Assembly (NCBI GenBank): GCA_018902385.1
Contig: JABSSW010000019.1
Location: forward strand, 496,001 to 560,000
Direction: 5' to 3'
Source: Physcia stellaris
Lineage: Eukaryota > Ascomycota > Lecanoromycetes > Caliciales > Physciaceae
DNA length: 64,000 nucleotides
The notes under the pieces were generated by a model that had not been told where the DNA came from, made no database searches, and saw only the letters and a list, made by a program, of their open reading frames with translations. How positions within the stretch are numbered: the stretch's first letter is position 1; each line of letters opens with the position of its first letter. Made by a program: the position numbers and the translations under genes. Below are positions 21,860-64,000 of this stretch, in pieces.

Positions 21860-22930
21860 CGTAAGTCGTTCAAATCAATGCTTCAACACGTTTTAACGAT
21901 TAGACATCGTGATCGTTTCGATCGCAATTTTTTTCGTTGTTGCAAATCTCATCGTCGTGAACAATGTTTTTTTTTTCAACGAAATTTGCAAAAATCGCAT
22001 TGAATATTATATTCATCGAAGTTTGTTTATCGAAACTATACGAAACATCGAAAAATGTGAAATTTTCGTTGTCAAAAAAATTCGACGAAATTTGAAAAAA
22101 TACGATCAACATATCGCTTTTCATGAACGTTTTAATTCAAAATTTTTAATCGACGCTTTCGTGATCAAAAAATTGAAAAATTATTTTTTGAATCGATCGT
22201 GAAAGATATTTGAATGAAATGATAATATATTTGTTCGATGACAAAACATTGTGTATAACGAATTCATTGTTTCGAAAATTTTAAAACATTATGATATCAA
22301 CAGAAAAAAATTTCAACGAATCGTTTTGAAACGTTTTCAAATATATCGCAACGAATACATGTTATTTTTGATGTCATTAAAAAACGATCAATTATGTTTT
22401 TAGACGAAATCGCGAATAATGAACATATTTTACATCGCAAAAATGAATAATTTGTTTATGAAATCATTTTTCGAATCATTCGATTTGTTAAACGTTCGAA
22501 ACGATTTAATTTATTTTTCGTGTACATCAAAAACGATATATTCATTTATCACATCGTTCAGAACGATTTTAATCAAATTTTGTTTGAATAATTTTTAAAA
22601 CAGAAAATTCTTTTTCGTTGTAATTCATTTTCAAAATTTCGATCGATTTTAATAATGAATAATGTTTCAATACATTATTATCGTGACGTTCGAAATTTGT
22701 GCGCGAAACACGATGTTCGAATTTTCTATTTTTTTTTTTACTTTTCAAATTTCAATTTTATTGAAAAATTTTTTTCGATGTTCAAAATTCATTTGAAACG
22801 TTATTATAACGACGTTTTTGTGAACGAAAATCAATTCGAAACAATATTTCGTCAAACGATTGAAACATGCAATAATTCGAAAACGATTAAAAATCATTTT
22901 TCGCATGCAAATATTACGATTCATTAAATT
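21860..22930 (+). mobile_element. Tc1/mariner-type DNA transposon relic
   Basis: A degraded DDE transposase can be followed on the plus strand. The middle has a FLDEIANNEHILHRK segment (about 22398-22450), which fits the first catalytic Asp region, and the end (22655-22927) has MNNVSIHYYRDVRNL followed by FYFSNFNFIEKFFSMFK, clear equivalents of the second acidic block and of the YSPDFNPIE-type block with the catalytic Glu. The second Asp position reads Asn. The upstream helix-turn-helix part is in more than one frame and several stops interrupt the reading. Terminal inverted repeats were not found, so the ends are approximate. Base use already shows the CpC/CpT-poor signature of the whole repeat half. 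Confidence 0.7.
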
Positions 22931-24032
22931 GAAAATATCGATGAAAAAAAAATCATTTAAAATGACGAATAAATTTATTTTTTTGTACAAAACACGAATT
23001 TCGAATTTTTGCATGCGAATTGAATGCAATGAATAAATTCTATAGAACACAATCTATAAAAAAATATTCATTAAATTCGCTTGACGCGAGTGATCGATCG
23101 AGAAGAATTTTGATCAATTTTGCGTTCGTATTTTTTAAAGTCGATAAATTCAATCAATATTTAATTCACGTTCTCAATGCGATAAATCATCAAATTTTTT
23201 TCGTTCAATCATCAAAATTCATTTTGAGTGCGAGAATTCGTACAGTTGTTTCGCATCTTGCACATCAATCAGCAATCACATATGATTTTCACTTATCTAG
23301 TCGAAATTGTAAAGCAAAAAAAGCGCAATTCAACGTTGCAAAAATAACGAAAATCGATTCATTATCGCAATAATTTTGTGATTTGAAAAATTATGTTACA
23401 ATCAAATTTGTGTTCGTTTCGCAATGTTTCGTTTTTGAAAATTCAATTCTCAACAATGTTTGCAATGTTTCAATACGATTTCGATCATAACTCAATGCGA
23501 CAACGATGAATTTTCGATATTGTTGATTATTTGAATAATGTTCATTCTGTGTTTCAAAACGAGTTTTCGATTGTATGTTTTATTTATTGAATGCAAATGT
23601 TATTAAGATGCGAAATCGATGAGATCGCAAATCGAGTGCGAAATCATTTCGCAATTTTATCAAATCTGATTTTAATTCTAAAAATTCTCGACAAAGTTTT
23701 TTTTAAAAAAACTTTCGAACCTACTTGTGTATTAAATAAATTAAAATCAATGAAATGTTCGCAAAAAAACAAAGCAATTTGAATGCAAAATCATGTAATT
23801 ATTTCGATGTTTTTCATGTCGTATAACGTTTTTGATTTCAAGTCGAAAATCACGAATTCGAGATTTTTGAATCAGAATATGTTTTCGATTTTCGATTTTA
23901 TCTGCATAAAAACGTAAAAAATTCAAATCAATTTTGATGTAAAACAACGTTTATTTCTCTTTTATTTCTCGCTCGCAATTAGTTTTTTTATTCATTTTTT
24001 TACTTCAAATCAAAAAGCACGAATTCGAAATT
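22931..24032. other. AT-rich mutated repeat sequence of unknown origin
   Basis: Strongly CpC/CpT-depleted sequence with one 117-codon open frame (23020-23373) that has no recognisable domain. It formed the landing site of element A, so it is older than A. It may be flank of the mariner relic or part of another repeat. Confidence 0.4.
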
Positions 24033-24424
24033 TGTAATACGTTCGCGCTATCGAACAACTAATTCATGCGTTAGTTCTGAGTACGCGTCTGCGTAACGCA
24101 AATGCTTGACATTAGTAATGAAAATAATTCAGATGTAACATAGTTATAAGCGCACGTTTAATAGAAACGTCATGAATTGATGTCATAATCATGACGTTAA
24201 TCAAAACGTCATAGCTATTACGTCAAATACGAATATAAATAAATTGTTCATTTTTTTTCTCGTTGAGTTTCAACGATTAATTTTACATTTACAGTACTCA
24301 TACGATGCTGATAGTTAATAATTGAAATTTATTAAATTTCACGTCTTTCAATAGCTCGATGCGCTATCGTAGAGTTAATACATTATTGAAATTTGCTTTA
24401 CGTCAGCGCGTTTAAGTTTTTACA
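24033..24424 (+). repeat. Left LTR of element A
   Basis: Starts TGTAATACGTTCG and ends TTTTTACA; pairs with 37717-38110. The AAATT duplication lies just outside. Confidence 0.92.
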
Positions 24425-24474
24425 GTTTTAATCGTTTCATTTTTCGAAGGGAAAGGTTCGAGATTTATTAGCAT

Positions 24475-25553
24475 TATGACTGAATCAAATATCAACATTT
24501 CAAATTTTAGAATAAAAATCTTGATGATGTTTCAAATATTTCAAATAATTTTATTTTTTCGAATTGAAACGACGTGAATCAAACTCAGCAAAACATTTTT
24601 ATTATCGACAATGCGACGACGCAAAACATTTTGAAACAAATGACAATTGCTTTTCGAAAATTTAACGATGAAATCGTTTAATTGCGAATTCAAACTCGAG
24701 CAAATCAAAATGCAACGCAATTCGCTATCGCATCGCAAGCGCAATCAGTATCAATTGTATTTATCGTTTATTTCAAAAAACGAAAATTCAAAAAACAGTT
24801 TTTTTACAAAAACGAAAGTGAAAATGAACATATTCGTTGATTTCGCGAAATCGAATTCGAATTTCTGACGTGTTTTAATTATTTTATGAATGATCGATCG
24901 AAAATTTTTTGATGCATGTCATCGTTGCGAGAAAATTTTCAATTTCAATGATTCAATCGCATCGACAACGATAAAAATTTGAAAAATATTTTTTACGATT
25001 ATTATAAGTTTTTTTTTTTGAATTTGATAGCAAATTCAATGAATCGTCGATTCGTCGTTTACGAAAATTGAAAACGAATTCGTCAACGTGCGAATCAAAA
25101 AATGTCTAATTTCAAAAATGAACTCGAGAAGTACGAGATTCATTTGTCGTTTTTTGATGAAATTCATTCGATCAATTTTTTTTTTTGTAAATTATTGTCA
25201 TCGTTGAAAAAAAAATTGTTAAATATCGAAAAAATATCGATGAATAAAAAAAATTTGTTTGCGAAAATCGTCATGTTGAAAAAAATTTTCGAACGCGAAC
25301 GACGAACAAATTCGCGTATTCAAAATAATCAAAACATTTTCAAACAGAAAAAAAATAAAAACAAAATTAAAAAACAATTTCAACAACAAAGTCAACAACA
25401 AAATCAATCGCAAAATCGTTTCAATTAAAACATTTTTCACGATTTTGAACGCAATACGCATGCGAAAAACAAGCGAAAACGTAATGAAAATGATCAAAAT
25501 ACAAAATCAACGTGTTATCGATGTCATCGCAAAAATTACTATGTTTTCGATTG
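24475..25553 (+). pseudogene. gag remnant of element A
   Basis: Charged capsid-like segment ending in a Gln/Asn-rich stretch and a CCHC zinc-knuckle remnant near 25510-25552. Fossil, broken. Confidence 0.6.
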
Positions 25554-25559
25554 TAAAAT

Positions 25560-28288
25560 TGATGTAAATGAATCGAATAATCAACATATCATCGTTGTCG
25601 TTAACGTCACATTTGAGTTAAAAAAAGATCAAGTTTCGCGAACGTTTCGCAAACGAAACAAAAAAAATCAATAAAAATTCGAAATTCTATCGTGATTCAA
25701 AATTGAATCAAATTTTTGAAAAATGAGCGATTTGTTCGCGCGTTCGTGAATTTTGAAATCAAAATCAATTTTATCAATCAAATTTTTGTCATTCAGTGAA
25801 AAATGCAATCGATAAACGAAATCATTTTATCGTTATCGAATTTTTTGAATGAACAAAATCGTTATTGTCATGAAACGCATGAACTCATTTACAACATAAT
25901 AGATTCGTGAAATCAGCATCGTCAATGCAAAATTTTGTTTTATGCAATTGACTATACTGAATCGAATTTTATTTTGAATATGTTTATGTTGATTGTCGAA
26001 AACATATTAGTGAATTCGACGAAAAGCAATTGACGTTTCAAAATCAAATTCAAGAAATTTCAGATTGATACGTTTAGACAATTTGTTAAGAATTTAAAAA
26101 ATCACGAACAGATATTCGCGTTGATGTGTGCAGAAATCGAAAAACAATCGAAAAAGCAGAAATTTAAAATTACGAAAATGTCAGAACAGCTAAAGAATTT
26201 AAAAAATCAATTTGACGATATTAAAACAAATATTTTATTCGAATTAAATAGAAATGATCATGTTATTGATTTGAAAAAACGAGAAATCGTCGTTCATGTC
26301 GCTGTATAATTTATCACAAAATGAATTAACGAAGTTTCGACGTTACATTGAAAATGTTTTGATCAAAAAATGAATTAAACATTTAATTTTTTCGTTGACG
26401 CGTCGATACTTTTTGTATCGAAAAAAATAAAAATTTTCGTTTTTGTGTGAATTATCGAAATTTGAATGCGATGATTATCAAAAATCGTCATTCATTATTT
26501 TTAATCACAGAGACTTTGAATCGCTTTAGTGATGTCAAGAAGTTCATCAAAATCGATTTGAAAAATGTTTATCATCGAATTCGCATCAAGCAGAACGACG
26601 AGTGAAAAACGACGTTTCGCACGCGATATGAGCATTTTGAATATCAAATCATGTTTTTTGAATTAATCAATGTTTCAACAATTTTTCAAATTTATATCAA
26701 TAAGGTTTTGCGAAAACTTGTCGACGTCATTTGTGTGATCTATTTGAACGATATTTTGATATATAGCAACGATTCAACGCAATATTGACGACATATGCGT
26801 TTTGTGTTCAAGCGATTGAAACAGTACGAACTGTATGTCAATTTAAAAAAATGCGAATTTGTCATCGATCAAATCGAATTTTTAAATTTCATTGTGTTCA
26901 TTGAGAATGTACAAATGAATTCAGAAAAAATTCGAATCATTGAGAAATGATCGCAATTTAAAAACTATCGCGAATTACAAATGTTTTTAAATTTCGTCAA
27001 TTATTATGATCGTTTTATTCATGATTATTCAAAGTTGATTGCATCATTTATTGATTTGTTGAAAAACAATAAACAAAACAAAAAATTTGAATTTTTTGTT
27101 TGAAAGAAAAAGTCGAAATTGACGTTTCGTCGATTGCGCGATATTTTTACATCGATTTTCATTTTTCATCATTATGATTCAATCAAAAAAATCAAAATGA
27201 AAATCGATGTTTCGAGTTTCGAAATTTCAAATATTTTTAGTCAATTTGATGAGCAAAATCATTGACGTTCGATCGCGTTTTGATCGCGAAAAATGATATC
27301 GACAAAAATGAATTACGAAATTCATGATCAGAAATTACTAATTATAATTATGATTTTTCAACAATGACGACATTATTTCGAGAACGTTGCGCACGCGATT
27401 GAAATGTGATTTGATCACAATAATTTAAAAAAATTTATGAAACAAAAGAAATTTAATTCAAAACAGATCAAATGAATTTTTAAATTAGTTGTTTATGATT
27501 TCGAAATTTTTCATCGTGCAAACAAAATCAATTCGACAAATGAGTCATCGAAACGTTCAAATTACGAAAAAACGTCGTCATTCAATATCAAGTTTCTGTT
27601 CATATTGCAAAATAAATTTGCGTTATCGTCAAAAAAACGAATCGATTTTGAAAATCAAAGTTTTGCTTCGAATATCGCAACAAATATTCAACTATTCAAA
27701 AACAATGCGCGTGCGAAAAACAAACGCGAAATGTTAAAAAATTTAAATTCACTGTTTCAATTGATTGATGTACAGATTGTCATTTTCAAAAAAAAAAAAA
27801 TACGAGATTTATTTGAGAAACTCTATAAGAAATCGCAAAAATCGATGAAATTTTTGATTAAAAAATTTCAAACTATCGACAAAACGATTAAAAAATTTGT
27901 CGAGAAAAGCAAAAAAGTCATTTCGTCGTCGACGCAACAAATTTTATTGAAAAATGAATTTCGAAAGTTTTTAGATTCAAAAATCGTTTTTATGTATTTG
28001 AAAATGCAACAAAAAAAAAAAATTCATAAACAAAAATCACGATGATTCATTGACAAAGCATTTTGATGTTGATAAAATTATGAATTTAATTCAACGAAAA
28101 TTTTATTGATTCGTTTGCGCGAAACAAGTTCGTTCATATGTCAAGACTTGCGACATATGTCAACGTATCAAAGTTCATCGACATAAGTCTTATGAGAAAC
28201 TCAAATCTTTATTTGTTTCGAATATTTTTGAAAGAAAATCATCATGAACTTTATCATCGATTTGCTTTTTAGCAAACGTCGCGATGTC
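25560..28288 (+). pseudogene. pol remnant of element A, left part
   Basis: Protease region, gypsy reverse transcriptase (IDLKNVYHRIRIKQ and VICVIYLNDILIYS near 26551-26769), RNase H and the integrase zinc-binding segment (CDICQRIKVHRHKSYEKL near 28152-28205) in the usual Ty3/gypsy order. Fossil with many breaks; element B interrupts it at the right. Confidence 0.8.
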
Positions 28289-28525
28289 TGTTACGAGCAT
28301 GTCTGACAGATAGATTTGACAAATAGATAAACGATATGATAGATGATTGAGCAAATAAATTTAAATCGAATTATGTTCTAATTTCTTGACGAGATTAGCG
28401 TGATTTGAAATTTGACGTTCGCACACTGTTTACAATTTCATCATTTTGTACATATTTGTTTTTGCAAACTTATTGTTTTCGTCTAGTTAATCAATAATAC
28501 GTTTATTCAAACACGACTCATGATA
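28289..28525 (+). repeat. Left LTR of element B
   Basis: 237 bases, pairs with 34764-35000 and with the split LTR of B2. The ATGTC duplication lies outside. Confidence 0.92.
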
Positions 28526-28739
28526 TTACAATAAATTTTCAATTTTTATCGTTCGTCGAAATACGCGAACGTTCAAAAATAAAATTTCAAATCGATCAAA
28601 CTCTTTTGACGAAACAAACGACGAAAAATTCTGTTAATCAGACAAACGACGAAAAATTTTTTTGACGAAACAACGACGAAATCTTCGACGATAAAAGACG
28701 AAAATTGACTCGATTAATTTTTTTTTTTTTTATCATTTT

Positions 28740-30135
28740 CAATTTTTCATTCTCAGTTATGATTCGAAATCATCACGAAACAATTTTTTCAAATTTTTTA
28801 TTTCGATGAAACAACGTTTCAAAACGTTACGTCGTCAACGTGAATCGTATGTTGCATAAAATTAACGACAATTTTTTTGACGAAAATTTCGCTAATCAAT
28901 TCAAACGTCGTCGATTTGTGTCAACGATCGATTTCATAAAAGTGAAAAATGAAAAAATCATTCATTTTTGAATATCGTCATCATCGATCAGTTGAAATGA
29001 TGAGTCAATCATAAAATCGTCGATTTTTTAAAAAATTTGATCGATTACGCATCGATCGTGACAATTATTTGAACGTTTTGATTCAATATTAGAATTTGTA
29101 CAATATTGTCAACGTCGATCGTGACGAGTTGATCAATACGAATGTCGAACTAAATGAAATTCGTCGAAAATTGAATGTTTTGAAAAACGAATACGAAAAA
29201 CAACGTGATTTATTTTTAATCAAACAAAAAAATTACATTTTTTGAAAAAATCACGACGTTTTGTTGATCAAAACTCGCGATCGTGCACGAAACTTTGACG
29301 TCGACGATGAAAAAAACGACGATGAAATCAACGTAATTAATTTTTTCAAAAGAACAAACGACGTTTCAAAACACATTCAGATTTTCTTAAATTCATCGAT
29401 GAAATAGAATTCGCATGACGTGTTTGAAAAACAAAAATACACGATAAAATGACGATCAACGTTGATTATTACGACACGAATATAATCGCAATCATTATTG
29501 TGATTGATTGAATTGAAAATGATGTCGATGATCACATACAATCGATTCGTGATATTGATATGAATCATTTCAAAATTTGACATATGATGTTGAAATTTTT
29601 GAACATTATTTACGAAAATTTTGATTTCAAACGCAATATGCGTAATCAATTTCGAAAGCATTGATCATGAATATTCAAAATTTTCAATTTTTTTATTTCA
29701 TTTTTTTCGTTTTAACAATTCAATTGATTATAACGAAAGTCATCAAAATCGAAAAATTGATGAACAAAATTTTTTAAATTTGAAAAAAACGATGAATGTA
29801 TATTCACGTGAATTCATCACGTTCGATGAAATTCGAATCATTTTGCAACAAATATACAATCGACAATCGAATTTTCGAAAAAAAAAATCGCGACACGTCA
29901 ACAACGTTCTGAATTGTTTCAATTCAAATCAATTTTTGTCGTCTCGATTTCGATGTTCTTTACGAAATTTGTCATTTCGAAATTTTTTTTTTTTCGTGAA
30001 ATTTACAAATTTTTCATTTTTATTTCAACGTTGAAATCAAGATTCGTGATTCGATGATCGACAAACTAATCGTCACGAACAAATGTTTCACATGTGACGA
30101 ATTGAGTCACGTTTGAAAAGAATGTTCAAACGATC
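28740..30135 (+). pseudogene. gag remnant of element B
   Basis: Capsid-like region closing with a CX2CX4HX4C zinc-knuckle remnant near 30084-30125. The same region recurs in B2 at 62571-63960. Fossil, broken. Confidence 0.65.
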
Positions 30136-30280
30136 ACAAACATCAAAAACGTCATTGACACAAAATGTAAATATCGTACATGAATTTAGTCGTCGAGTCG
30201 AATGATTTTGATTCGAAAAACTAACAATTCACATCAAAAACGCGATTGATGAATGTTTAAAAATTTTTTTATTCACAACG

Positions 30281-33200
30281 ATGATTTGTTTGATTTTTTT
30301 CATCAAGCGATTTTTAGTCATCAATTGTACGTTATCATTCAACGATAATAAACATAAACTAGAAACTTTAATAGACATTGATGCAATTGATTATGCATTC
30401 ATTGATAAAGAAATCGCGCAATTTGTATGCAACATGTTGAACATGAAATTCGTATTTTTATTGAAATCGAAATCATTGATTGAATTCGACGATCGTCAAA
30501 TTTCATCAATAATTCATGTCATATATTTTAAATTAACGATAGAATTGCATTTCGAGTTGATCGCTTTTCTGTTAATCATCGATTTGAATAATCATTCGAT
30601 AATTTTAAAAAAATCGTGAATGAACAAACATGAAATCATATTGAACATGATTTACGATAAATTGATTTTCAAATCGTTTAAATGCAATCATCATGACAAT
30701 ATATTCAGTCAAACTGTTCAAATTCGACGTTTGAAAATTTTCAAATCAAATCGTCGATAAGATGTATTTAACTGACGTCGTGATATTCTATTATCGCAAA
30801 AAAACGATTCGAAGCATATAACGATGATGAAATCTCGATATATCATTTTTGTCTCGTTTCAAAGTCAAACTTTTGTTTTTTACAGTTGAGAATGAAGTCA
30901 AATGTATTCGATTCGAAATGTTTCGAATGTTCAATTCATTCGAACGTCGATGACGATGACGAGTCGTCAATCATCGAATCAAAAAATTCAGAAATTGATA
31001 TCACAGCAATTACGAAAACGACATTCATCAAAAAAAAAATTTGAAAAGACAACGCAACAAACGTTGAAAAATCAAAAAACAACAATTCGAAATTTTTTCA
31101 TTTTCGAAACTGAACTCAAACGATTCAATGAATATCGCGATGATTGATGCAATTTTTTTTTGTTTGTTTGTTGATTTCAAAAATCGAAAACAAAAAATGC
31201 AATGTTTTTTCATTACAATCAATCAAATCGATTTCGCGTTCAAAACATTGCGAGCAAATTTTGAATCGTTGAAAATTGCTGTCATGATCAAAAAATTTTG
31301 AAACATGAACAAATCAAATCGATTTTTGAACGTATAATGAAAAAAATATTCAAATATTTCAAACATTTGTCAAAAATATTCGATTTTCAGAAAACAATTG
31401 AATTGTCGTCGTATCGATTTTACGATCACAAAATCGAGTTTTTAAACGATAACAGTTCATTGTTTCGAAGCAGAATATATTCTTTGTTCGAACTCAAATT
31501 TCAAAAACTCAAAAAATATTTGAAAAATAATTTTCAAAAGAATTTTATTGTATTCAATCAGATTGCATACGTTTCGTTCGTTTTATTTGCAATCAAATCG
31601 AACGATCAATTACGTTTGTGTGTGAATTATCGACGATTTAATCACATCACGAAACGCAATCGATATTTCATTTTTTTAATCGAAAAGATTTTAGTCAAAA
31701 TGCAAAATTGCAAATATTTGATCAAACTGAATATTATATCGATTTTCAACAAGCTTCGAATGAGTGAAAAAAATGAAAAATTCATCACGTTCGTTATTTT
31801 CATGAAATCATACAAATATCGAATGTTATTTTTCGAATTGATCAACGAATTCGCGAGTTGACAACATTACATGAACGATTTGCTATTCAATTTTTTGAAC
31901 GATTTCTGTCAAGTCTATTTAAATGATATTTTCATTTACAGCAAATTCAAAAAAAGCACATCGTTCACGTGCGTAAAATATTGAAAAAACTCAAAAAAAT
32001 CGAATTACAAATGAATATTGAGAAATGCGAATTCTTCAAAAAAAAAAAATGACATTTTTGAACGTTATACTATCGATGAATGATTTTCGCATGAATTCGA
32101 AAAAAATAAAAATCATTGTCAATTGAAAACGCTTTACAAATCTGAAAAAAATGCAAATTTTCGTGAATTTCGTCAATTTTTACAGACGATTCATTCGTAA
32201 TTTTTCGAAAAAGACTCGAATTTTCATTCGAATGATCAAAAAGCTCGTAAATTTCGAATAAATTGTTGAAATCGAAAAAGTTTTCAATCTTTTCAAAAAA
32301 CGATGACGAAAATTTTCATATTACGACATTACGATCGAATCAAACAAGATCATTTTGAAAATTGATTTTTTGATTACGTCAATGCGAAAATGTTATTTCA
32401 ATACGACGACGAAGAAATTCTGCATTTTGTTGTTTTTATAATCGCAACATGATTTCAATCGAATGCAATTACGAGATTTACGACAAAAAGTTGTTGATCA
32501 TTATTCGTTGTTTAAAACATTGACGTTTTGAGTTTGAAAACATTGAAAAATCGATCAAAATTTTCATCGATCACAAGAATTTAGAAATTTTCATGACGTC
32601 AAAAAACTAATTTTTCGTCAGACTCGTTGAGCAGAAATTTTCTCGAAATTCAATATTGTCATTCAATTTCAATTCGAAACTTAAAACGTTAAAACAAATG
32701 TTTTGATTCGTATGTTTGATTCACGATCAAAAAACGATATTGACGAGCGACATCAATATCGAAAACAAATATTGTTTATTTCGAAACGACTCGAAATTCA
32801 CGCGATGAAATTTGACGAATTTATTTACGAACGAATTTTGATTGTCAACAAAATTGACGATGATTGCACGATTTATCGTGAAATCATCGAGCAAAATCTC
32901 ATTTCAATGAATGAAATCGATTTACGAAATTGCAATGAAAAAAACGAAACTTTATATCGAAATAATCGATTTTGAATGTTTGTCGATGTTTTTTTATTCG
33001 TTGATTTTTTCAGAGAAATTCACGAATTTTCGATTTCGAAACATTCAAATTTCAATCGTATAAAAAATTTTATACGTCGCGATTATTATTGATTCAACAT
33101 GCGCAAATTCGTTCGTCGATACGTACGTAATTGTCATGAATGTCAACGTACGAAAATTTTCAAAAATCGAAAAAATGATTTATTCATTTTTTTGATCATT

Positions 33201-34310
33201 TTTTTGCAACGTTGAATCGATATATTCATGAATTTCATCATCGAGTTGCTCGACGTTCACGATCATAACGTCATTTGCACGATAATTGACAAATTTAGCA
33301 AAAAACGTCATTACGTGTTTTGCATCGTCGACGACGAAAATACAAACGCGAAAATCACAATCAAAATATTTATCAATTACGTATTTCGTACGCATGAGTT
33401 ATTTTTCTTTATAACGTCAAATCGAGAATTTCAATTCATATCGTTCGTTTGACAAACATTTTGCAAAATTCTCGACATCAAATGTAAATTTTTCATCGTT
33501 TTTCATTCAAAAATCGATGAACAAATCGAAAAAATCAATCAAAATATCGAAAAACAATTGCGACAGTATTGCAATTACATGCAAAACGATTGAAACGTTT
33601 GATTGTTTATGATCGAATTTGCAAACAACAACGCGATATTTGCAACAACAAAATTGTCATCATTTTTCATCAATAAAAATTTTCATTTTCGTATGAACTT
33701 TTCATCAAATTTTATCTCGTATGTTACAACGAGAAAACGATTTTTGATCGTCAAAACAAAAAATATCATCGACACAATGCAAAATATTTTCAATTACGTA
33801 CGAAATCATGCAAAAATGATTCAAAAACGTATGACAATTCAAATCAACAAACATCGAAAAATCGTGAAATACGTCGAAAAAAATTTCGTTTTTTTGAATC
33901 GACGAAACATCAAAACGATCAAATCATTTGACAAATTTGATGACAAAAAATTAAAATCGTACAAAATGTTAAAACGTATGAACAATTTTTATCGATTCGA
34001 ATTATCAAAAATCATGCGAATTTACGATGTGTTTCATTGTTGATTTTTTCGCAAAAATTTTCGTGATTTTTTCGAAAATCAAATTAACGAATTTTTCGAT
34101 TTCGTCATAGTCAACGAGAATTTCGAATGAAAAATGAACGATATTTTGAAATTTCGATATCATTACAATCGTTTTCAATATCGTGTCAATTGATCGAATT
34201 GATTTCATGATCGAACGTGATATTATGTCGATAACGAAAAATTCGATAATGTTCGCGACGTGATGAACGATTTTCATCGTATTCATTTCACGACGACAAA
34301 TTCAAAATCG
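30281..34310 (+). pseudogene. pol remnant of element B
   Basis: Retropepsin region (LETLIDIDAIDYAFID), reverse transcriptase (about 31560-31960), RNase H, integrase zinc-binding and core (FIIELLDVHDHNVICTIIDK near 33229) and a C-terminal chromodomain-like segment. The order is that of gypsy chromoviruses. Fossil with many breaks. Confidence 0.8.
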
Positions 34311-34763
34311 TTCAAAACGTTGATTTCAATATTTCAAATCGTCGTCAGCGAATTCGATTTTTCAGCGAATCGTCGTCGTTTTCGAAAAAAATCGTCATGT
34401 TAACATTAATCGAAATTATTTTCGATTAACATTTGACGTCACGAATTCAATTTTCATTCATTTGTTTTTGATTTCACGATTTTTATTCAACAATTCAATT
34501 TTTATTATTTTTTCGATGTTATTTACAGTCAAAATTTACATCGCATGAAAAACTGAATCGTGTCAAAAACATTTTCAAAAATTGTCGTCAAATTTTATCG
34601 AACGTTGAAATGACAATAAAATACTAAAAAATGAAAAATGATGATCGTGAAATTTCAGAATTTTGCAATCATACAATTTGATCAACAAAATTTTCAACAA
34701 CATTTTTCAATTTCAAAACAACAACGAATCGTCGAAACGACGCTCGCGAAAAGAAAAAAATAA

Positions 34764-35000
34764 TGTTACGAACATGTTTGACAAATAAATCTGACAAATA
34801 GATAAATGATATGATAAATGATTGAGCAAATAAATTTAAATCGAATTATGTTTTAATTTTTTGACAAAATTAACGTGATTTGAAATTTGACGTTCGCACA
34901 TTGTTTACAATTTCATCATTTTGTACATATTTGTTTTTGCAGATTTATTGTTTTCGTCTAATTAGTCAATAATACGTTTATTCAAGCACGACTCATGATA
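34764..35000 (+). repeat. Right LTR of element B
   Basis: 237 bases, same orientation as the left LTR; followed by the ATGTC duplication and the continuation of element A. Confidence 0.92.
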
Positions 35001-35005
35001 ATGTC

Positions 35006-37716: not shown

Positions 37717-38110
37717 TGTAATACGTTCGCGTTATCGAACAGTTAATTTATGCGTTAATTTTGAGTACGCGTTTGCGTAACGCAAATGTTTGACATTAAT
37801 AATGAAAATAATTCAAATGTCATAGTTATAAACGCACGTTTAATAAAGACGTCATGAATTGATGTCATAATCATGACGTTAATCAAAACGTCATAGCTAT
37901 TACGTCAGATACGAGTATAGATAAACTGTTCACTTTTTTTTTTTCGTTGAATTTCAACGATTAGTTTTACATTTACAATATTCATACGATCATTTGATAA
38001 TTAATAATTGAAATCTATTAAATTTCACGTCTTTCAATAACTCGATGCGCTATCGTAAAACTAATACATTATTGAAATCTGCTTTACGTCAACGCGTTTA
38101 GATTTTTACA
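37717..38110 (+). repeat. Right LTR of element A
   Basis: Pairs with 24033-24424; the differences are mainly C/T before T and, on the other strand, G/A after A. Confidence 0.92.
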
Positions 38111-38335
38111 AAATTTTTGAATCGATGTATGTTTCGATTTTTCGTAAATTCGATCAAATATCGTGTTTTAGAATTTTGCGATCAAAAACAATGCATTCAG
38201 ATTTTTTTTTTTCATTTTGTTTTTTTATCGCATGTTTTTTGCTTTTGATGTTGTTGTATTCGTTCAAAAAAATTTAATTTTTTTTTGTAAACGTGTTTCA
38301 AGATTTTTGAATATGTTCAAATCGATCGTTTTTGA

Positions 38336-38429
38336 TGTTACGAACATGTCTGACAAATAAATTTGACAAATAAATAAACGATATGATAAATGATTGAACA
38401 AATAAATCTGAATCGAATTATGTTTTAAT
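38336..38429 (+). repeat. First part of the split left LTR of B2
   Basis: Matches the first 94 bases of the B LTR and ends with TTAAT, the target duplication of element C. Confidence 0.88.
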
Positions 38430-38746
38430 TGTAAAACTCGTACTAGAAATAATATAATTTAATGAATTATTGACATCAAAAATGTATAATTTGAAATGTA
38501 ATATATTGATTTATTAATCGTTACAAAACAAATTACGTTTTGCAATTGTTTTTTATTCACATTTTATTTATTTAATCGTATGAATTCGATCGATTTCGAT
38601 TGACAATATGAATTTGTTGAATTTATCGTTGATCGAATTGTAAAATAATTGAAATTAATTTTTTCGAAATCATTCGAATTTCGATAATCGAATTGTTTGA
38701 CGAAATGCGAATCGCATTTTCGAAAATTTGAATTTTTATTTTTACA
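38430..38746 (-). repeat. Left LTR of element C
   Basis: 317 bases, TG...CA ends, pairs with 61903-62222. Because the element reads on the minus strand, this is its downstream LTR. Confidence 0.92.
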
Positions 38747-39249
38747 TACGTTTTTTTAAGCATCGAAATTTTTGAAATCAACATGTTAACAAAAATTTTG
38801 ACGTATTTTGTTTGTTTTGACGTGTTTTGTTTGTTTTGATTTTGTATTGATTTGAAAAATCATTATGATCGTGATTTTCGCATTTCGAAATATTTTTGTT
38901 CGAATTCAATAATCAATTTGCGTTAAAAATTTGAAAAAACATTTTTTTGAATGATTCAAAAAAAACATAATTTGATGAATCAATTGTTTGTTGTTTTTAT
39001 GATCGAATGTTTGATTTCGTATAATTCACAATTTTCGATATAATGATTGACAATTGATTTGTTGACAAAAAATTTTGAATTCGAACATTTTTTCATTTTT
39101 TTCATTTTTTTATTTCGAATATCAACATCGATATCATGAAAAAAAAATGTGTAAACGCGATAAACGTTCATTAATCGCGATCGCATTGATATTCAAATTT
39201 CGAAATTTTTTTTTATTTTATTTCACATTTTTATTCAACGATTTATCGT

Positions 39250-42133: not shown

Positions 42134-42173
42134 TTTTTGAAAAAAACGACGAATTCAAAAAAATTTATTTCGT

Positions 42174-42539
42174 TGTAACGATTCAAATCAGAATCGAGTA
42201 AACGACTTGCAACGATTCAAATCAGAAACGAATAAACGATTTTCAAATTTTGATTCAAATTTTAATGAATAGATTTCGACATATGCGTCGAATGACATAA
42301 TCAAAAAAGTTTCACAAACACTAATTTCGAAAACTGTGAAAATCACGAATAAATCATTTATTAGCGATATGCGATAGCCGTTGAAAATCTCGATAGAAAA
42401 TCGTCGAGTACATAATAAATCACGAATTCTGCTCTTGATGAAGCAGCGATTCGTCTGAATAACAAACACGTTGAATTGTAATTTTAATTTTAATCAATTG
42501 ATGTATACAAATCAATCTTTCAAAAAAAGAAATTTTACA
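42174..42539 (+). repeat. Left LTR of element D
   Basis: 366 bases; begins with two near-copies of a 27-base motif containing ACGATTCAAATCAGA. Pairs with 49051-49416. Confidence 0.92.
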
Positions 42540-43552
42540 TTCGAATCGCTATTATAATCATCACGATTTGCATTTCTCGATTGAAATTGATATACAATCC
42601 ATTTCGTACGAGTTACGATCAAAAATTTCAAATCATATGAAGTTTGCGATCGTTGCGCAGCAATTAACAATCACATTTCGTTTTGAAAATTTCACGAAAA
42701 ACATCATCGAAAATTCAATTCTATTCGCATTCAAAAATTTGCGAAATCTTCATCGTCAATTTTTTTTTTCATTGCATGTCAATGCGTGAAACAATAATAC
42801 GATGTCTGATTTAAAAAAGTGTTTCTGACACGATTCAGCTTTTCTACATCAATCCGAAATAAGTCTCGTAAAGCGCACGAAATGATCACATCACGAACTC
42901 GAAATTTCTACGAAATTCGAAATCAAATATCGCAACAAGCGAAAAAATTTCAATCAACATATCAAAAATCTCAGTATCAATCAATATCATCGAACGAGCA
43001 AATTAAAAGAACGAGATTATTTTTCTAGTTTGAATCGTCTAGAACTCATCGAATTCAATATCAATACTCAACAAAGAGACAAAGAATGCTTTTAGCAAAA
43101 AACTATAACATTTCTAATGCAATTTCATCACATTCAGAATTTACGACATTGATTTGCAATTTAACAAATGATTTGAAAATTTGTGACAAATCGACAACAT
43201 ATGTCGTCACTTTCAACGTCATCAACACATTCAAAATCGAATGTCGTTGCTCGAAAACGTTTTACATTTTGAGCGAACTCGATTTTTGCGTTGAAATTCG
43301 AAAAAGCGATTATCAAATCATTGTCAAGAAGATACAAATCAGCAATCAATTGAAACGCAAATGCGATCGCAATCACGATGCTTGACGACATAATAACGTC
43401 ATATCAAGTTCTCGCGAAACTAAATCGTCGAAAATCGAAAACGAGACAAACAAAATCAAGATATCGATACAACGCGAAAGATAAATTAAAAATTCGAAAA
43501 TAACACGACTCGAAAAAACGTGTTAAAAATCACATCAATACAATATGTGCGA

Positions 43553-49050: not shown

Positions 49051-49416
49051 TGTAACGATTCAAATCAGAGTCGAGTAAACGATTTGCAACGATTCAAATC
49101 AAAAACGAATAAACGATTTTCAAATTTTGACTCAAATTTTAGTGAGCAGACTTCGATATATGCGTCGAATGATGTAATCAAAAAAATTTCACAGACTTTA
49201 GTTTCGAAAACTGTGAAAATCACGAATAAATTTTTTATTAGCGATATGCGATAGCCGTTGAAAATCTCGATAGAAAATCGTCGAGTACATAATAAATCAC
49301 GAATTCTGCTCTTGATGAAGCAACGATTCGTCTGAATAATAAGCATGTTGAATTGTAGTTCTAATTCTAATCAATTGATGTTTGCAAATCAGTTTTTCAA
49401 AAGAAAAAAATTTACA
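49051..49416 (+). repeat. Right LTR of element D
   Basis: 366 bases, equal in length to the left copy; followed by TTCGT. Confidence 0.92.
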
Positions 49417-49499
49417 TTCGTCAACGAATCATTTGCATTTTTCAAAAACAATGTATAGTTTATTTTTTTAAAACGATCAAAAATTCATTTGATATCGTC

Positions 49500-50272: not shown

Positions 50273-50299
50273 TTATTTTGATTCGATGTTTTCGATACG

Positions 50300-50475
50300 T
50301 GCTAGAAATAGTCAGTTACTAAAAATCGATATCAATGAATGTAAGTCGATTGAATTGCTAACTAAAATAGAAATTTTCTTAAGTACAGCTAGTCAGTTTA
50401 GCGCGAACTAGCAATCATTAAACAACTATTTAGCGCGAGCTAGCAATCATCAAACAACTATCTGTGCTCGTATCG
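50300..50475 (-). repeat. Left LTR of element E
   Basis: 176 bases, pairs with 60037-60212; short for a gypsy LTR. It is the downstream LTR for the minus-strand element. Confidence 0.88.
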
Positions 50476-50809
50476 ACATTTCGCAACGAGAAAAAGCTCA
50501 ACGCTCACGCTGATTTCATGTTCACTTTGTTTGTGTTTCATATTCAGCGTTTTAACTTTTCGTGATCATTTTGTTAACGATGTATAAATTTCAGCGTCAG
50601 CGCTTTGCTCATTCATATTTTGCTCAATATTTCTTGAAAGCATCATGTTCGATGTTAATGTTCGATCGAAAGCGCTTTTCGCGAACGACGACGTAACAAA
50701 CGTTTAAAAAATTGCGTTCAACATTTTTGATCGTTGAATCGATATGTTGAATTATCAATTTGACTAAGTCAGAACGTTTGTTGATCAATGTGATTTTCAT
50801 TTTCGTTTT

Positions 50810-52644: not shown

Positions 52645-52899
52645 TCATCAAATTCAAATTCATAATCTAATCATTTTATCAGATATTTCACTATTTTGAT
52701 TTTGTCGTATTTTCGATTTTTTTCTTTTTCATCAACTTTTCTATCTCGTAAAATTTTTTTCAAAAGATGTTAAATGTGTTTTTCATTTCGACGACGTCGA
52801 AATGATTCGAACGAAATCGATTATAGAAATCGACGTCTTTTGACGTCGATTTCAATTGCATAATGAATATGACTGAATGAATTTGTCATTTGAACGACA

Positions 52900-54224: not shown

Positions 54225-54298
54225 ATCGAGAATGATTTTTCAACTAACGTTTTTGATATTCGATGATGAGTTTTTGCGAAAATTCGATGACATCTCGA

Positions 54299-56814: not shown

Positions 56815-58211
56815 AATACAGTCGATATTCGCGCAAATTTGACTAATTTGTCATTCAAACTGTGATTGATTTTTAATTTAACATAGTGTCATTTACGAAA
56901 ATTGAAATCGACGTCGAAAATAATGATAATTGTAAATTCGACGATCGATAGTATTTTGTCATCGATTGAGTGTTTGTGAAAAGCGTTCATTGATTCAATA
57001 GTCGACAAATTATTGACACGTTTTTGCGATAGATACGAACGTGACGATGTAATTTGTTGTTAAAATAAAAATCGATTTTGCACATTCGACACGTGTAATC
57101 AAAAAAATTACGTGATTAACGTTTGATTCGTCAACGTCAAATGAAAGTTTCGACGCGTTCATAGTCATCGAATCGTAATGAAAAACTGAATCGTTCAAAA
57201 AAACAGACTCAAATTGATTTTGATTTTTCTCGATGACAACAAAACGTTTCGCGACAATGTGTCAAACGAAAATAATATCGTTTATTGTTTTGTCGTCATA
57301 ATAAACGTTTTTATCGTTGACGTCAACGTCGTCGACGTTGACGCTATGATACACTGATTGAAACGAGCGAGCGTTGACGTTAAAAAATACAAATGATCGA
57401 CGATTCGAATTTGACGCGTTTTTTTTTTGTTGATTTCGTTGATTTTGATTCGAAAATCAACGATCAATTGTTTGCGTGTTGAAAAAATTGACAAAATCGA
57501 TTGCTGTTGCTGTACGTTTGAGAATCGATTTGTTGATTGCTGTTGTTGCATGTAAACACGATTTTGATTTCAAATTTGAGCATAATTTTGCGAAACATAA
57601 TTGTTTTGCGATACGAAATTCGAAAATTGAGCAAAAATGAAAATTGATTGAATGTCAAATCGAAAATAATCGTTTTAAATATATTTATCAACAACATTGT
57701 CGTCATATTCGACATTTGATTGATCGCGATCGCGATAGTTTATTTTCGACATGTCACATTGTAATTGTTTATTTTCACGTTGCTCGCGAGTGTTTTTATT
57801 TTTGACATTGATTTTTCGTCGATCAATTTGTTCGAAAAATTGTTTGTTAATCAATTTTCATCATGAATGTTTTCGATCATTCAAATTTCGTAAAAAATCA
57901 TTCAATTTGATGTCATTGATAGATTTATTGACGTGTAATTGAAAGTCAACGTCGAATTCGTTTCAAATTTGTAATAATTGATTGAATATTGACAATTCAG
58001 TTGATTTGTTTAATCGAATTATTTTTTGCGCGTATTTTTTAGATTCACGTTCATGTTGTGCATTCGTCATATTGTATGATTTTTTGACGAGTTTTTTCAT
58101 GATTTTAATTGACGATTTTCGAAATTTCTTTATTAAATATTTTTTTCATTGATTTAGATCTTGATTTAGTAACAAAAAATTTTTTTTCATGTTTGTAAAA
58201 AGTGACGTATA

Positions 58212-59042
58212 TCAGTTCAAAGCGTCATTTTTTAAACATTGAAAAAGATTGCGACGTACGATGTTTTCGTTTTTGATAACAACGAAATTTTTTATTTTAG
58301 TCATGAACAAATGAACGTCACGAAAAACGATATTTTCGTTAGTAGATTTCATAATCGCATCGATAATTACAAATTTGTCGTCATGAAACGAATCGAAAAA
58401 ATCAAGATGTTTTGATTGAAATTGATTATTGTTATTGTCATCATTGTCATTTTCAAATGAGTCGAATGAATCAAATAATTCAATTGATTTTTGTTGATTT
58501 CGTTGATTGATTTGTTGCATTTTTTGACGTATTTTTGTTTTAATATTTTCGATAGTTTGAATAACGACGACATTAACGACAATCGTGATAGTTGTTTGAA
58601 AAGTTGAATTCATGACGACAATTATTGAGTTAGATTTTATGAACTGATCGTATATGACTTTCTCGACTGACGTTTCGCGTGTAATAGTCGAATTGCTATC
58701 GATAAACAAATTGTTGTTGATTTGTTGATTATCGATAGTAAAACGATTGTTTGAATCGATAATAAATGAGTAATTTGAAACACGAGAAATTTTAACGTGA
58801 ACTTGATTTCGTTCGATTACGAAAATATCGTTTTCGTATCGAAATCGATTTTTTATACGTGAAACGATAATTTGAAATACAGTTGTTTTACGATTCGAAA
58901 TGATTGAAATATCATTAAATGTCGAATTGTCGTCAAATGTTTCGATTTTTTGTTTAGATTGAAAACTTTGATAAACAAATGTTTGTTTGTACTTTTCGAT
59001 TTTTTTAAAGAATCGTGAAGCGATCGTTTTAAAAATAAGCAA
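58212..59042 (-). pseudogene. gag-like remnant of element E
   Basis: A 276-codon open stretch on the minus strand, Asn/Ile/Asp-rich, upstream of the protease region. The position fits gag; no zinc knuckle was seen. Fossil. Confidence 0.5.
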
Positions 59043-60036
59043 TGTTGATAATTTACTTTGACGAATATTCTAGAAATTCGATTGACGCTATTCTGATTTT
59101 TCGAATTGTTGACGATTTTGTTGATCGAAAATTGATGTTTACAAAAATTATCACTGTCTGAATGATTTTTTTTTTGATAAAGTTTTTGTCAACGAATGAT
59201 TTGCTAGTTCAAACTCATGAAAATGTCACGCAATGACGACGATTTTTTTGTTCATCGATTGAGTTGAAATACGCGAAATCGAAATATCAAACGAAATCAA
59301 TTTGATTGTCTAATTAAAAATGTTTGTCATGTAATGACAAACTGATATACTACAATGATTTGTCAGTTAGAACAAATATTGCGTCAAGCGATGACAACAA
59401 AATGCAATGAAATGAACGTAACAAAAATAGATAAACAAAATGAGCGAGAAACTGTCTGAAACAATGACGAAATTTCTCGAAAAAACAAACGCTTAAAAGA
59501 AACAAACGTTAAAATAAAAATATTCGAACGACAAATTCGTTTGACGTGATTCGTCATCTAACAAATTCGAAAAGAATTGACAAAATGAAAAATCGTAAAT
59601 TAAATAGAAATCGATTGTTGATTTGAAAACGAAATTGTTGATGTAAAATTGTTTGAATTGAAATTTGCGAAAGATTTTTGAGAAACAGTTTTGTTGTTTA
59701 AATTGTTTTGTAAAGTCGATACGACGAAAATTTTTTTTGTTTCAAACTTTTCGACAACGAAATATTGAAATTGATAAACGCGCACGTTATGATTCGAACG
59801 TTTTGTCAATTCATTCGATTGTGAATGACGTGTCGAATTCATGAATAAATTGATTTTTCACGACAATTAAATCGACGATTTAAAATTGACAATTGACAAT
59901 GATTTGTCAAATTGATGAAATTGTTGAAACAATGCGTTTGACTGTTGACAAACTCGATTTGATTAAAACGACGTATTCGATCGACAATCAATGATGTCAA
60001 ATACGTAATACAAATCGAATTTATGATGTTATCATT

Positions 60037-60212
60037 TGTTGAAAATAGTCAATTACTAAAAATCGATATCAATGAGTGTAAGTCGATTGAATTGCTAACT
60101 AAAGTAGAAATTTTCTTAAATACAGTTAGTCAATTTAACGCGAGCTAGCAATCATCAAACAATTATCTAGCGCGAATTAACAATCATCAAGCAATTATCT
60201 GTGTTCGTATCA
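60037..60212 (-). repeat. Right LTR of element E
   Basis: 176 bases, pairs with 50300-50475. Confidence 0.88.
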
Positions 60213-60217
60213 ACACG

Positions 60218-61902
60218 ACATGTGATAAAAATGAAATGTTTTTTTTTGCAACGTCAAATTTTGATATTGTCGTCGTTTCAATTCATTTTGATTTTCGAAA
60301 ATTGTATTCAAAACATGTTTAACGTTAAATTTCAATTCAAATTCACGATCAGAAACGATTTTTCGAAAAAACGATTAATTTTTTTGACGTTTGACATTTC
60401 GAATTGTACGAAATAAACGTTATACGTTTTCAAACGATGATTGTCAATTGTTATGTATCACAGTTTAAAATTTCAAAACGACGAAAATTCAGTTTTTTCG
60501 CATAGACATGATTTATCAAATTAATTTTCGTTTTTGTATCGAATATTGTTTTCGATTCGTTTCAAATTTTGTTTTCGTTTTGTATGTTAATTTTGATTTT
60601 GACGCATTTACGAATCACGAATTTTTTAAATTTTTTGCGTCGTTTTTTTTTTTTTTGTTAACATGATTTTTGTTCATGTTTGAAAAAAACGACGTATCGA
60701 AATCGAAATTCGAAATTTTTTTTTTTTTTAACGATTTGAACGAAAATCATCAAATCGATTAATTTTTTGATTGTTCAAAAATTTGATCAACGAAAATGAT
60801 TTTGTTTTTTTTGTTTATGCAAATTTCGATTTGATGATTTGATTTGTCACAATTTATACAATTATTTTTGTTTTGAATTTTTTTGAATTCGTTGACGAAT
60901 CAACGATACATTGAAATATTTTTCGATTTGACTGATTCGTGATTCGAATTAATTTTGTTAATATTTTTTATTTTTTTATTTTTGAATTTCGCAATTTTGA
61001 ATTTTTCATTTTCGTTTTCGAAATTGTCAATATCGAACGAAATTTTACGTTTTTTGAAATTTTTGAATTTTTTTCAAAGTTTGAACGTTTTTTATACGTT
61101 TAAATCGTTCAAACAATTTCGTTTTTGTGAAATTTTTTTTTTTAAAAACATGCAACGAAATTTCAAACGTAATTCGTCACGAAAATCGTTGAATTTCATT
61201 GTTTTCGTGAATTTGAATTCGAATTTCAATTCAGCAAACATATTTATTCGTTCGACATTGTAATTTTTAATCGATTGATTGTGATTTTGTTTGTGTTTGC
61301 GATATTTTTTCAAAAAAATTTGTTACAACGTGATTGCTCGTTCGATGTCGTTTTTCAAAAAATTTTGAATTCGTTTCAAATGTATTGTTTGTTTGAATGA
61401 AAATCGATTTTTGCGTTTCAAAATTTGTTCGCATTGCTATTTGATTTAAAATAAATATCAACGTATGCGATTTTGATTAAATTCGAAAATTGAATTATAT
61501 GATTCACGTTGTTTTGCGTGAATTGATTTTTCATTTGTTTGCAATATTTTTTTCATTTTTTGTAATTTTTTTTTCATATTGATTCGATGTCGTTTCGATA
61601 ATTTTCATGACGAAAAATTTTCAAACAAAATCAAAAACAAAAATAGATGAAATAAAAACAAATGAAATAAAAATTACAAATTTCGAACGTTCAATATTTC
61701 GAGTTTGCAATTTGATTTTTTTTTATAATTTTTTTCGATTTGTTGTTTGTAATAAATCAATCAAAAAAATACGTCAACATTTTCGACAAATTCAAAAAAC
61801 AAATCATTATCAGAATTCGACATGATGTATGCGAAACAACAAAATTGTATTTTGTTAAATATACACGAGTGACATCATTTTGAAATATGATAACGATTAA
61901 AA
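60218..61902 (-). pseudogene. gag-side remnant of element C
   Basis: Between element E and the right LTR of C. Minus-strand open stretches at 61092-61461 are charged and gag-like, but no diagnostic motif was found. Fossil, broken. Confidence 0.4.
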
Positions 61903-62222
61903 TGTAAAACTCGTATTAAAAATAGTATAGTCTAATGAATTATTGACATCAAAAATGTATAATTTGAAATGTAATATATTGATTTATTAATCGTTACAAA
62001 ACAAATTACGTTTTGCAATTGTTTTTTATTCACATTTTATTTATTCAATCGTACGAATTCGATCGATTTCGACTGACAATATGAATTTGTTGAATTTATC
62101 GTTGATCGAATTGTAAAATGATTGAAATTGATTTTTTTCGAAATCATTCGAATTTCGATAATCGAATTGTTTGACGAGATGCGAATCGCATTTTCGAAAA
62201 TTTTGAATTTTTATTTTTTACA
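61903..62222 (-). repeat. Right LTR of element C
   Basis: 320 bases with TG...CA ends; followed by TTAAT and the rest of the B2 LTR. Confidence 0.92.
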
Positions 62223-62370
62223 TTAATTTTTTGACAAAATTAACGTGATTTGAAATTTGACGCTCGCACATTGTTTGCAATTTCATCATTTTGTACATAT
62301 TTGTTTTTGCAAATTTATTGTTTTCGTTTAACTAATCAATATTACGTTTATTCAAACACGATTCATGATA
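62223..62370 (+). repeat. Second part of the split left LTR of B2
   Basis: Matches the remaining part of the B LTR and ends with the same ATTCATGATA-type terminus; the B2 internal region begins directly after it. Confidence 0.88.
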
Positions 62371-64000
62371 TTACAATAAATTTTCAATTTTTATCGCTCG
62401 TCGAAATACGCGAACGTTCAAAAATAAAATTTCAAATCGATCAAATTTTTTTGACGAAACAAACGACGAAAAATTCTGTTGATCAAACAAATGATTTAAA
62501 AATTTTTTTGACGAAACAACGACGAAATCTTCGACGATAAAAAACGAAAATTGACTCGATTAATTTTTTTTTTTTTTTATCATTTTCAATTTTTCATTTT
62601 CAATTATGATTCGAAATCATCACGAAACAATTTTTTCGAATTTTTTATTTCGATGAAACAACGTTTCAAAACGTTACGCGTCAACGTGAATCGTATGTTG
62701 CATAAAATTAACGACAATTTTTTTGACGAAATTTTCGTTGATCAATTCAAACGTCGTCGATTTGTATCAACGATCGATTTCATAAAAATAAAAAATGAAA
62801 AAATCATTTATTTTTGAATATCGTCATCATCGATCAATTGAAATGATGAATCAATCATAAAATCGTCGATTTTTTAAAAATTTGATCGATTAAACATCGA
62901 TCGCGATAATTATTTGAACGTTTTAATTCAATATCAAAATTTGTACAATATTGTCAACGTCGATCGTGACGAATTGATCAATACGAATGTCGAATTAAAT
63001 AAAATTCGTCGAAAATTGAATATTTTGAAAAGCGAATACGAAAAACAACGTGATTTATTTTTGATTAAACAAAAAAATTATATTTTTTGAAAAAAATCAC
63101 GACGTTTTGTTGATCAAAACTCGCGATCGTGCACGAAATTTCGACATCGATGATAAAAAACGACGATAAAATCAACGTAATTAATTTTTTTCAAAAAAAC
63201 AAACGACGTTTCAAAACACATTCAAATTTTTTTAAATTCATCGATGAAATAGAATTCATTTGACGTGTTTAAAAAACAAAAATACACGATAAAATGACGA
63301 TCAACGTTGATTATTACGACACGAACATGATCGTAATCACTATTGTAATTGATTGAATTGAAAATAATATCGATAATCACATACAATCGATTCGTGATAT
63401 TGATATGAATTATTTCAAAATTTGACATATAATGTTGAAATTTTTTGAACATTATTTACAAAAATTTTGATTTCAAACGCAATATGCGTAATCAATTTCG
63501 AACATTGATCATGAATATTCAAAATTTTCAATTTTTTTATTTCATTTTTTTGTTTTAGCAATTCAATTGATTATAACGAAATCATCAAAATCGAAAAATT
63601 GATAACAAAATTTTTGAAATTTGAAAAAACGATGAATGTATATTCACGTGAATTTATCACGTTCGATGAAATTCGAATCATTTTGCAATAAATATACAAT
63701 CGACAATCGAATTTTCAAAAAAAAAAAAATCGCGACACGTCAACAACGTTTTGAATTGTTTCAATTCAAATCAATTTTTATCGTTTCGATTTCGATGTTT
63801 TTACGAAATTTGTCATTTCGACTTTTTTCGTGAAATTTACAATTCATTTACATTTCAACGTTGAAATCAAAATTCGTGATTCGATGATTGACAAATTGAT
63901 CGTCACGAACAAATGTTTCACATGTGACGAATTGAATCACGTTTGAAAAAAATGTTCGAACGATCACAAACATCAAAAACGTCATTGACACAAAATGCAA
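62371..64000 (+). pseudogene. gag remnant of B2, continuing beyond the window
   Basis: Closely matches element B 28526-30170, including the zinc-knuckle remnant near 63905-63950. Fossil, broken. Confidence 0.7.

Follow-up and report, generated by a model that had tools for sequence, protein, structure and literature searches.

Repeat-induced point mutation (RIP) of Neurospora crassa is among the closest described systems, and its sites are attacked in the order CpA > CpT > CpG > CpC (PMC5496416). A preliminary description of the DNA studied here had also stated that Neurospora RIP favours CpA, in agreement with this order. In the case of Trichoderma reesei, the same source describes CpA and CpG as about equal and ahead of CpT, and CpC as the least favoured site. 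CpT was given as the predominant signature, beside CpA, in Magnaporthe oryzae and one Botrytis cinerea strain (PMC4352252), and in one survey CpT dominated the alignments (PMC7882544). We analysed a stretch of 64,000 nucleotides from Physcia stellaris (the window; contig JABSSW010000019.1, positions 496,001 to 560,000 of the forward strand), in which a block of repeats carried a signature of C-to-T mutation. P. stellaris is a lichen-forming fungus and a lecanoromycete. The signature was confirmed as genuine and strong, and it extended beyond the window. Its order was CpC > CpT >> CpA and CpG, with CpA and CpG near background.

Dinucleotide observed/expected ratios (o/e) were determined separately for the repeat half (21,900-64,000) and the gene half (1-21,700) of the window. 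In the repeat half, 7 CC and 5 GG were left in 42 kb (o/e 0.01 each). CT was counted 575 times (o/e 0.27) and AG 761 times (o/e 0.35). CA (2582, o/e 1.25) and TG (2683, o/e 1.21) were retained, and CG was counted 2647 times with an o/e of 3.15. TA was depleted (o/e 0.42), TC had an o/e of 1.45, and AA and TT were abundant. The gene half was ordinary, with o/e values of 0.93 for CC, 1.11 for CT, 1.11 for CA and 0.84 for CG. These counts bore out the preliminary description, in which C stood mostly before A or G, and CC, CT, GG and AG were rare, in the repeat half only. The same was found per 1 kb. CpC o/e was below 0.2 and CpT was lower than CpA in 42/42 tiles of the repeat half, CpC o/e was below 0.2 in 0/21 tiles of the gene half, and a CpA depletion matching that of CpC and CpT was not seen. 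In 200 mononucleotide shuffles of the repeat half, the sum of CC and GG had a mean of 1,686 and a minimum of 1,577, compared with the observed 12. Trinucleotides of the forms NCC and CCN stood at 0.1-0.4% of their genic frequency with any third base, TCA and TCG were up 1.7 to 2.0-fold, and CTA was down. This meant that the first C of CC was the base lost. The edge was sharp at about 21,800, with the final CC/GG before the mutated block at 21,801. Positions 1-21800 therefore formed an unaffected, gene-bearing half with normal dinucleotides, and by dinucleotide and trinucleotide counts positions 21801-64000 formed the depleted repeat block. In this block CpC was at about 1% and CpT at about 30% of expectation on both strands, CpA and CpG were not depleted, and the G+C of 2-kb tiles was 23-33%.

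The direction of mutation was read from transposon copies that had stayed unmutated in this genome, and all copies compared came from that one genome. They were part of each family, drawn from the best-scoring matches. Family 1 was a Gypsy element (RVT_1, RNase H, integrase) with the unmutated copy L025 as reference; L031 was also unmutated. Besides L025, 39 matches were listed after scoring of 39 of 244 candidates, and nine copies from among the ten highest-ranked were compared. Family 2 was a second Gypsy family, for which four of 19 other matches were compared with the unmutated L043. In the 12 mutated copies of both families, C had changed to T at 79-98% of CpC, 44-86% of CpT, 3-9% of CpA and 2-8% of CpG sites. 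The eight mutated copies of family 1 gave 79-97%, 44-81%, 3-9% and 2-8%, respectively. The other unmutated copy, which was 4.5% different, gave 4.2, 4.2, 3.3 and 2.9%. The four copies of family 2, one of them in the window, gave 96-98% at CpC, 76-86% at CpT, 3-6% at CpA and 3-4% at CpG. The C-to-T process with CpC/CpT specificity that had been proposed for the repeats was supported by these comparisons.

The mutated copies of family 1 included two early and six later ones. The early copies were changed at 79-87% of CpC, 44-48% of CpT, 3-4% of CpA and 2% of CpG sites, and the later copies, including the one in the window at 29,578-33,580, at 90-97%, 73-81%, 5-9% and 2-8%. Survival of CC was 4.7-13% in the early copies and 0-1.1% in the later ones, and survival of CT was 51-55% and 16-25%. 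CpC was therefore lost first. By arithmetic on family 1, CpT was about two to three times slower than CpC. The 5' base was of little weight, since across 5' bases 87-92% of CpC and 62-74% of CpT were changed in this family. The window copy of family 1 at 29578-33580 was changed at 519/564 CpC, 392/490 CpT, 49/521 CpA and 43/525 CpG sites relative to L025, with CC survival of 0/563, and it was higher in all change types. It was assigned to the minus strand from the orientation of its match to L025, whose reading frames sit on the minus strand. The window copy of family 2 (25679-27555, plus strand) was changed at 233/242 CpC, 199/252 CpT, 9/242 CpA and 9/213 CpG sites relative to L043. The unmutated Gypsy copies L025, L031 and L043 coexisted with many mutated ones, and some Gypsy copies thus appear to have escaped or to be recent.

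Six repeat pairs were aligned within the window, and their transitions were tabulated by 3' neighbour. Such pairs give no mutation direction. Ten transitions whose 3' neighbour was ambiguous were excluded, and two pairs overlapped at 28,379-28,525, where the bases were counted twice. Differences were found at 129/174 CpT, 41/399 CpA and 16/403 CpG sites, with 23 transversions. The transitions were concentrated at CpT and were not evenly spread over the contexts. The pair 24033-24447 and 37717-38137 had 32 transitions at CpT, 2 at CpA and none at CpG. It matched the pattern that the preliminary description had reported for the long terminal repeats of its element A. Transitions at CpT, CpA and CpG numbered 16, 0 and 2 in the pair 28289-28525 and 34764-35000, 7, 3 and 1 in 38424-38756 and 61897-62232, 20, 4 and 1 in 42174-42543 and 49051-49420, and 16, 1 and 1 in 50306-50478 and 60043-60215. 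The longest pair (1.8 kb; 28379-30170 and 62224-64000) differed at 38/43 CpT, 31/229 CpA and 11/237 CpG sites. After its removal, the odds ratio from the other five pairs was 49. With 40 of 396 candidates scored, at least 44 genomic matches of the 1.8-kb repeat were obtained, counting the repeat itself. Inverted, diverged pairs with 68-74% identity were also present in the mutated block, at 26252-26702/49586-50036 and 27225-27386/41605-41767.

The genome was sampled in 20 stretches of 10 kb, giving 80 tiles, with the signature defined as CpC below 0.3. It was present in 10/80 tiles, and 4 of the 10 adjoined the window. DNA transposons were also affected. Among four DDE_1 loci examined, L048 and L049 carried the signature (CpC 0-0.08, CpG 2.2-4.1) and L047 was normal. 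TGA stops were found in 9/10 DDE_1 matches. In the case of RVT_1, 150 of 527 candidate matches were scored, and 140 of these had in-frame stops, which were TGA only in 112. In total there were 250 TGA, 33 TAA and 3 TAG. TGA dominated, and TGG to TGA is the sole sense-to-stop change open to C-to-T mutation restricted to C before a pyrimidine (CpY). The signature seen in the window was found again in repeat families of the genome, in mutated copies of the two Gypsy families and in the two DNA-transposon loci, as the wider check suggested in the preliminary description had called for. The CpC > CpT order, the near-background CpA and CpG, the other genomic sites, the DNA transposons and the hint of strand-wise tracts go beyond that description.

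A forward model starting from unmutated transposon composition reproduced all 16 dinucleotides with hazards of 5 for CpC, 1.5 for CpT, 0.1 for CpA and 0 for CpG, the best of the grid. The root mean square deviation (rms) was 0.0031, compared with 0.0533 before mutation, and the G+C was 0.277 in the model and 0.283 observed. Neurospora-ordered rates left the rms at no less than 0.043 on each of the scales used. The RIP indices of the region were 0.42 (product), 1.31 (substrate) and -0.89 (composite). The RIPper cut-offs are 1.1 for product, 0.75 for substrate and 0 for composite, and 0/83 windows were RIP-positive. The usual indices thus call the region unaffected, as had been predicted from the letters.

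The early copy L032 (C95:24580-28563) showed a different distribution over the two strands. In its first 500 bases, 77% of CpY sites were changed on one strand compared with 4% on the opposite strand. A similar tract was present at about 2,000-2,300. L032 and L033 (C51:4246-8230) were near-identical over long mutated blocks and different in tracts, and their flanks matched at 94-97%. They may be two haplotypes, gene conversion products or an assembly mosaic. Neighbouring CpT changes on the same strand were weakly correlated, with both negative and positive values (-0.07 to 0.12). The tracts hint, short of proof, at action on a single strand at a time.

The genome was searched for candidate enzymes, since RID- and DIM-2-type methyltransferases had been named as worth looking for. 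The PF00145 profile gave four matches in three genes, and RID, second RID-like and DIM-2-like genes were all present. P0121 on contig C5 was the RID orthologue, with the motifs PPCQFFS, EQT and later ones present; it matched the P. stellaris protein G7Y79_00005g016670 with 99% identity over 99% of the query. L001 (C6:790057-794028) encoded a second RID-like protein with the diverged motifs PPCQSFS and EET. Among its 74 matches, the only named relative at 60% identity or more was Heterodermia. Teloschistales named none of these 74, and many in the RID and DIM-2 match lists. L002 (C3:338823-342998) was DIM-2-like, and its best PDB match by far was 9bap (E 4e-180), which we take to be Neurospora DIM-2. 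The Pfam BAH domain (PF01426) gave no match in L002 or its three nearest relatives, and was present in many more distant ones. The mutation signature was at none of the three methyltransferase loci. In a RID alignment of 20 rows, the Physcia RID departed in at least three columns from a residue common to at least 13 of 15 others, and no clear cause of a changed specificity was found among these columns. A RID tree was built from 87 of 157 domains (the named rows, the RID2-list rows, every third other RID row and a few chosen ones). It separated the RID and RID2 lists, and the proteins of Aspergillus and Talaromyces fell with RID2. The root of the tree was a midpoint, and long branches met in it. 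By BLAST, an Aspergillus protein had 49% identity over 307 amino acids to the Physcia RID and 36% over 389 amino acids to L001. The EET motif was found in 38/39 RID2-list rows, and also in 10/118 RID-list rows.

We consider it likely that these observations reflect a repeat-directed, RIP-like C-to-T process that needs a 3' pyrimidine. On the gene content, a RID-family methyltransferase is probably the actor. The defence would convert C to T ahead of pyrimidines on both strands of repeats, with CpC hit fast, CpT more slowly, and change at CpA and CpG equal or close to background. The substrate rule with its order was shown directly in the two Gypsy families, as were its location in AT-rich blocks that carry repeats and its rate relative to background mutation. 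Strong episodes would fall on retrotransposon and DNA-transposon copies, and adjoining genes would be spared. Either the RID orthologue (contig C5) or the second RID-like protein (contig C6) would read the 3' pyrimidine and bring about deamination, and this may happen in the sexual cycle, as in Neurospora. Several features of RIP were found: C-to-T change on both strands of repeated DNA in the copies of both families, genes and single-copy DNA spared with a sharp edge (about 21.80 kb) in the window and sampled tiles, and an encoded RID homologue (P0121, with L001 as a second RID-like gene). CpA preference, a TpA rise and positive RIP indices were not found, with CpA changed at 3-9% and 0/83 windows positive. 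The process thus works like RIP, but we do not file it as canonical RIP, because its CpA hallmark was looked for and was absent.

Some results weigh against this explanation. The longest repeat pair had 31 changes at CpA beside 38 at CpT, although as a share of sites these are 31/229 and 38/43. CpA and CpG change was above the unmutated background in some copies, reaching 9.4% and 8.2% in the window copy of family 1. The DDE_1 locus L050 had two TGA stops and at most a weak signature, and the 33 TAA and 3 TAG stops require other changes. The motifs of the RID orthologue were ordinary, so that a new specificity would not be predicted from its sequence. The strand-wise tracts came from one copy, which is possibly an assembly mosaic.

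The actor could instead be not the ordinary RID enzyme but a distinct mutator, such as the diverged RID-like L001 or a non-methyltransferase deaminase, that reads the 3' pyrimidine strand-wise in long tracts. We hold this possibility tentatively; if it were true, the lichen lineage of Physcia would have acquired a rewritten target code for repeat-directed mutation. A dedicated cytosine deaminase unrelated to RID, working on single-stranded tracts with a 3'-pyrimidine rule, would fit L032, where for about 500 bases CpY was mutated on one strand and almost untouched on the opposite one. It is unlikely, however, because RID-family genes are present in the genome, and because the 3' base decides here whereas AID/APOBEC enzymes read the 5' side. 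A search for APOBEC_N gave no match in the genome, but 14 control genomes were also silent, so this result carries no weight. Repair could also set the context, if deamination occurred everywhere and T:G were repaired at CpA and CpG and not at CpC and CpT. Such selective repair would equally yield CpY-only loss on both strands, and the Gypsy comparisons fit either an enzyme choice or a repair choice. We regard it as quite unlikely, since near-complete repair at CpA and CpG would have to go with near-complete failure at CpC, and CpG change was only 2-8% even in copies almost without CC. Slow decay of methylated cytosine at CpY, through methylation and spontaneous deamination and with no active mutator, draws on the DNA methyltransferase genes that exist, and timing is beyond the reach of sequence alone. 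It is nevertheless improbable. In family 2 copies, 85-92% of CpY sites were changed, yet transversions were at only about 0.4-0.6% of sites. The early family 1 copies had 31 and 33 transversions, fewer than the 43 between two unmutated copies without CpY excess. These numbers meant that the process was episodic and far faster than background.

An assembly or base-calling artefact would agree with the scattered indels between two near-identical copies, which resemble long-read errors. The published P. stellaris assembly combines Nanopore and Illumina data and comprises 184 scaffolds, with a total of 46.57 Mb and a G+C content of 43.3% (PMC7513301). The copy analysed here had 43.97 Mb in 147 contigs and was not quite identical to the published set. 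An artefact is nonetheless very improbable, since CC was normal in genes and in three unmutated transposon copies of the same assembly, and the change was C-to-T, on both strands and dependent on the 3' base, with AA and TT plentiful. We give practically no credence to a misreading of ordinary CpA-type RIP or CpG decay, for which nothing was found: TpA was depleted (0.42), and CpA and CpG were retained. Other candidates were rejected. Decay of methylated CpG did not apply, because CpG was not depleted (o/e 3.15) and was 2-8% changed. Ultraviolet dipyrimidine mutagenesis depletes TpC, and TC was not depleted (o/e 1.45). A 5'-base rule of the AID/APOBEC type was rejected because the 5' neighbour had little weight in the Gypsy comparisons and the trinucleotides, and editing of reverse transcripts (cDNA) because both strands were hit and the DNA-transposon loci L048 and L049 were affected.

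Apart from the repeats, the gene half encoded a CAP59-type mannosyltransferase homologue at 1539-3128 and the NOG1 GTPase at 16238-17974. The 5S ribosomal RNA gave eight matches on six contigs in the genome, the lowest score being at C14:433396-433503.

The Physcia pattern was compared with those of other fungi. Magnaporthe, Botrytis and Trichoderma likewise show species-specific departures from pure CpA. However, they target CpA too, and the available parts of these reports name no CpC signature, whereas Physcia spares CpA and has CpC as its best target. In Basidiomycota, RIP-like mutation at CpG or TpCpG resembles that of Physcia as C-to-T change with a flanking-base rule. In the single-nucleotide polymorphism (SNP) table for Rhizoctonia solani AG8, CpC is commonest, at one per 214 bp, with 370 for CpG, 422 for CpA and 491 for CpT; the text calls the mutation CpG-biased, with SNPs in genes as much as in repeats (PMC4014442). 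In AG8, CpA and CpG are thus also hit and genes too, whereas in Physcia CpA and CpG are spared and genes untouched. AID/APOBEC enzymes also act by C-to-T change with a neighbour rule and in strand-wise tracts. They read the 5' base, whereas in Physcia CCA becomes TCA, the 5' base is minor and DNA transposons are also hit. In Stagonospora nodorum repeats, CpC is depleted beside CpA and CpG, and TpA is the only product to rise (PMC2621366). Monilinia shows CpC-to-TpT double changes beside classical CpA (PMC8959702). The lichen fungus Endocarpon has ordinary CpA-type indices of 1.47 and 0.70 (PMC3897900), and Cladonia repeats peak at about 16% G+C (PMC12542154), below the 2-kb tiles of Physcia. 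A G+C floor near 25% would be the expected residue of a process unable to touch CpA and CpG.

A k-mer study of 1,239 fungal genomes, whose screen did not presuppose CpA, found that RIP-like defences share a CpA preference (PMC12543289). It gives 130 species with recent activity in four classes; lecanoromycetes are not among these classes, and Physcia is not named in the main text. The open-access literature searched yielded no description of repeat mutation with a preference for CpC and sparing of CpA. RIP is commonly scored by CpA-to-TpA indices, which are blind to this case. A genome with extreme repeat mutation that nevertheless scores as RIP-free shows that a lineage can be overlooked in surveys based on such indices. 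With CpY-only mutation, stops arise at tryptophan codons alone, which alters the way in which the defence disables a transposon. Physcia and N. crassa also offer a natural specificity pair for locating the RID-family feature that reads the base after the target. The two are alike in C-to-T change on both strands in transposons, in a sharp edge towards genes, in the presence of RID and DIM-2 homologues, and in having intermediate and fully mutated copies. They differ in that TpA is low in Physcia and high in N. crassa RIP, and in that the worst target of N. crassa is the best target of Physcia.

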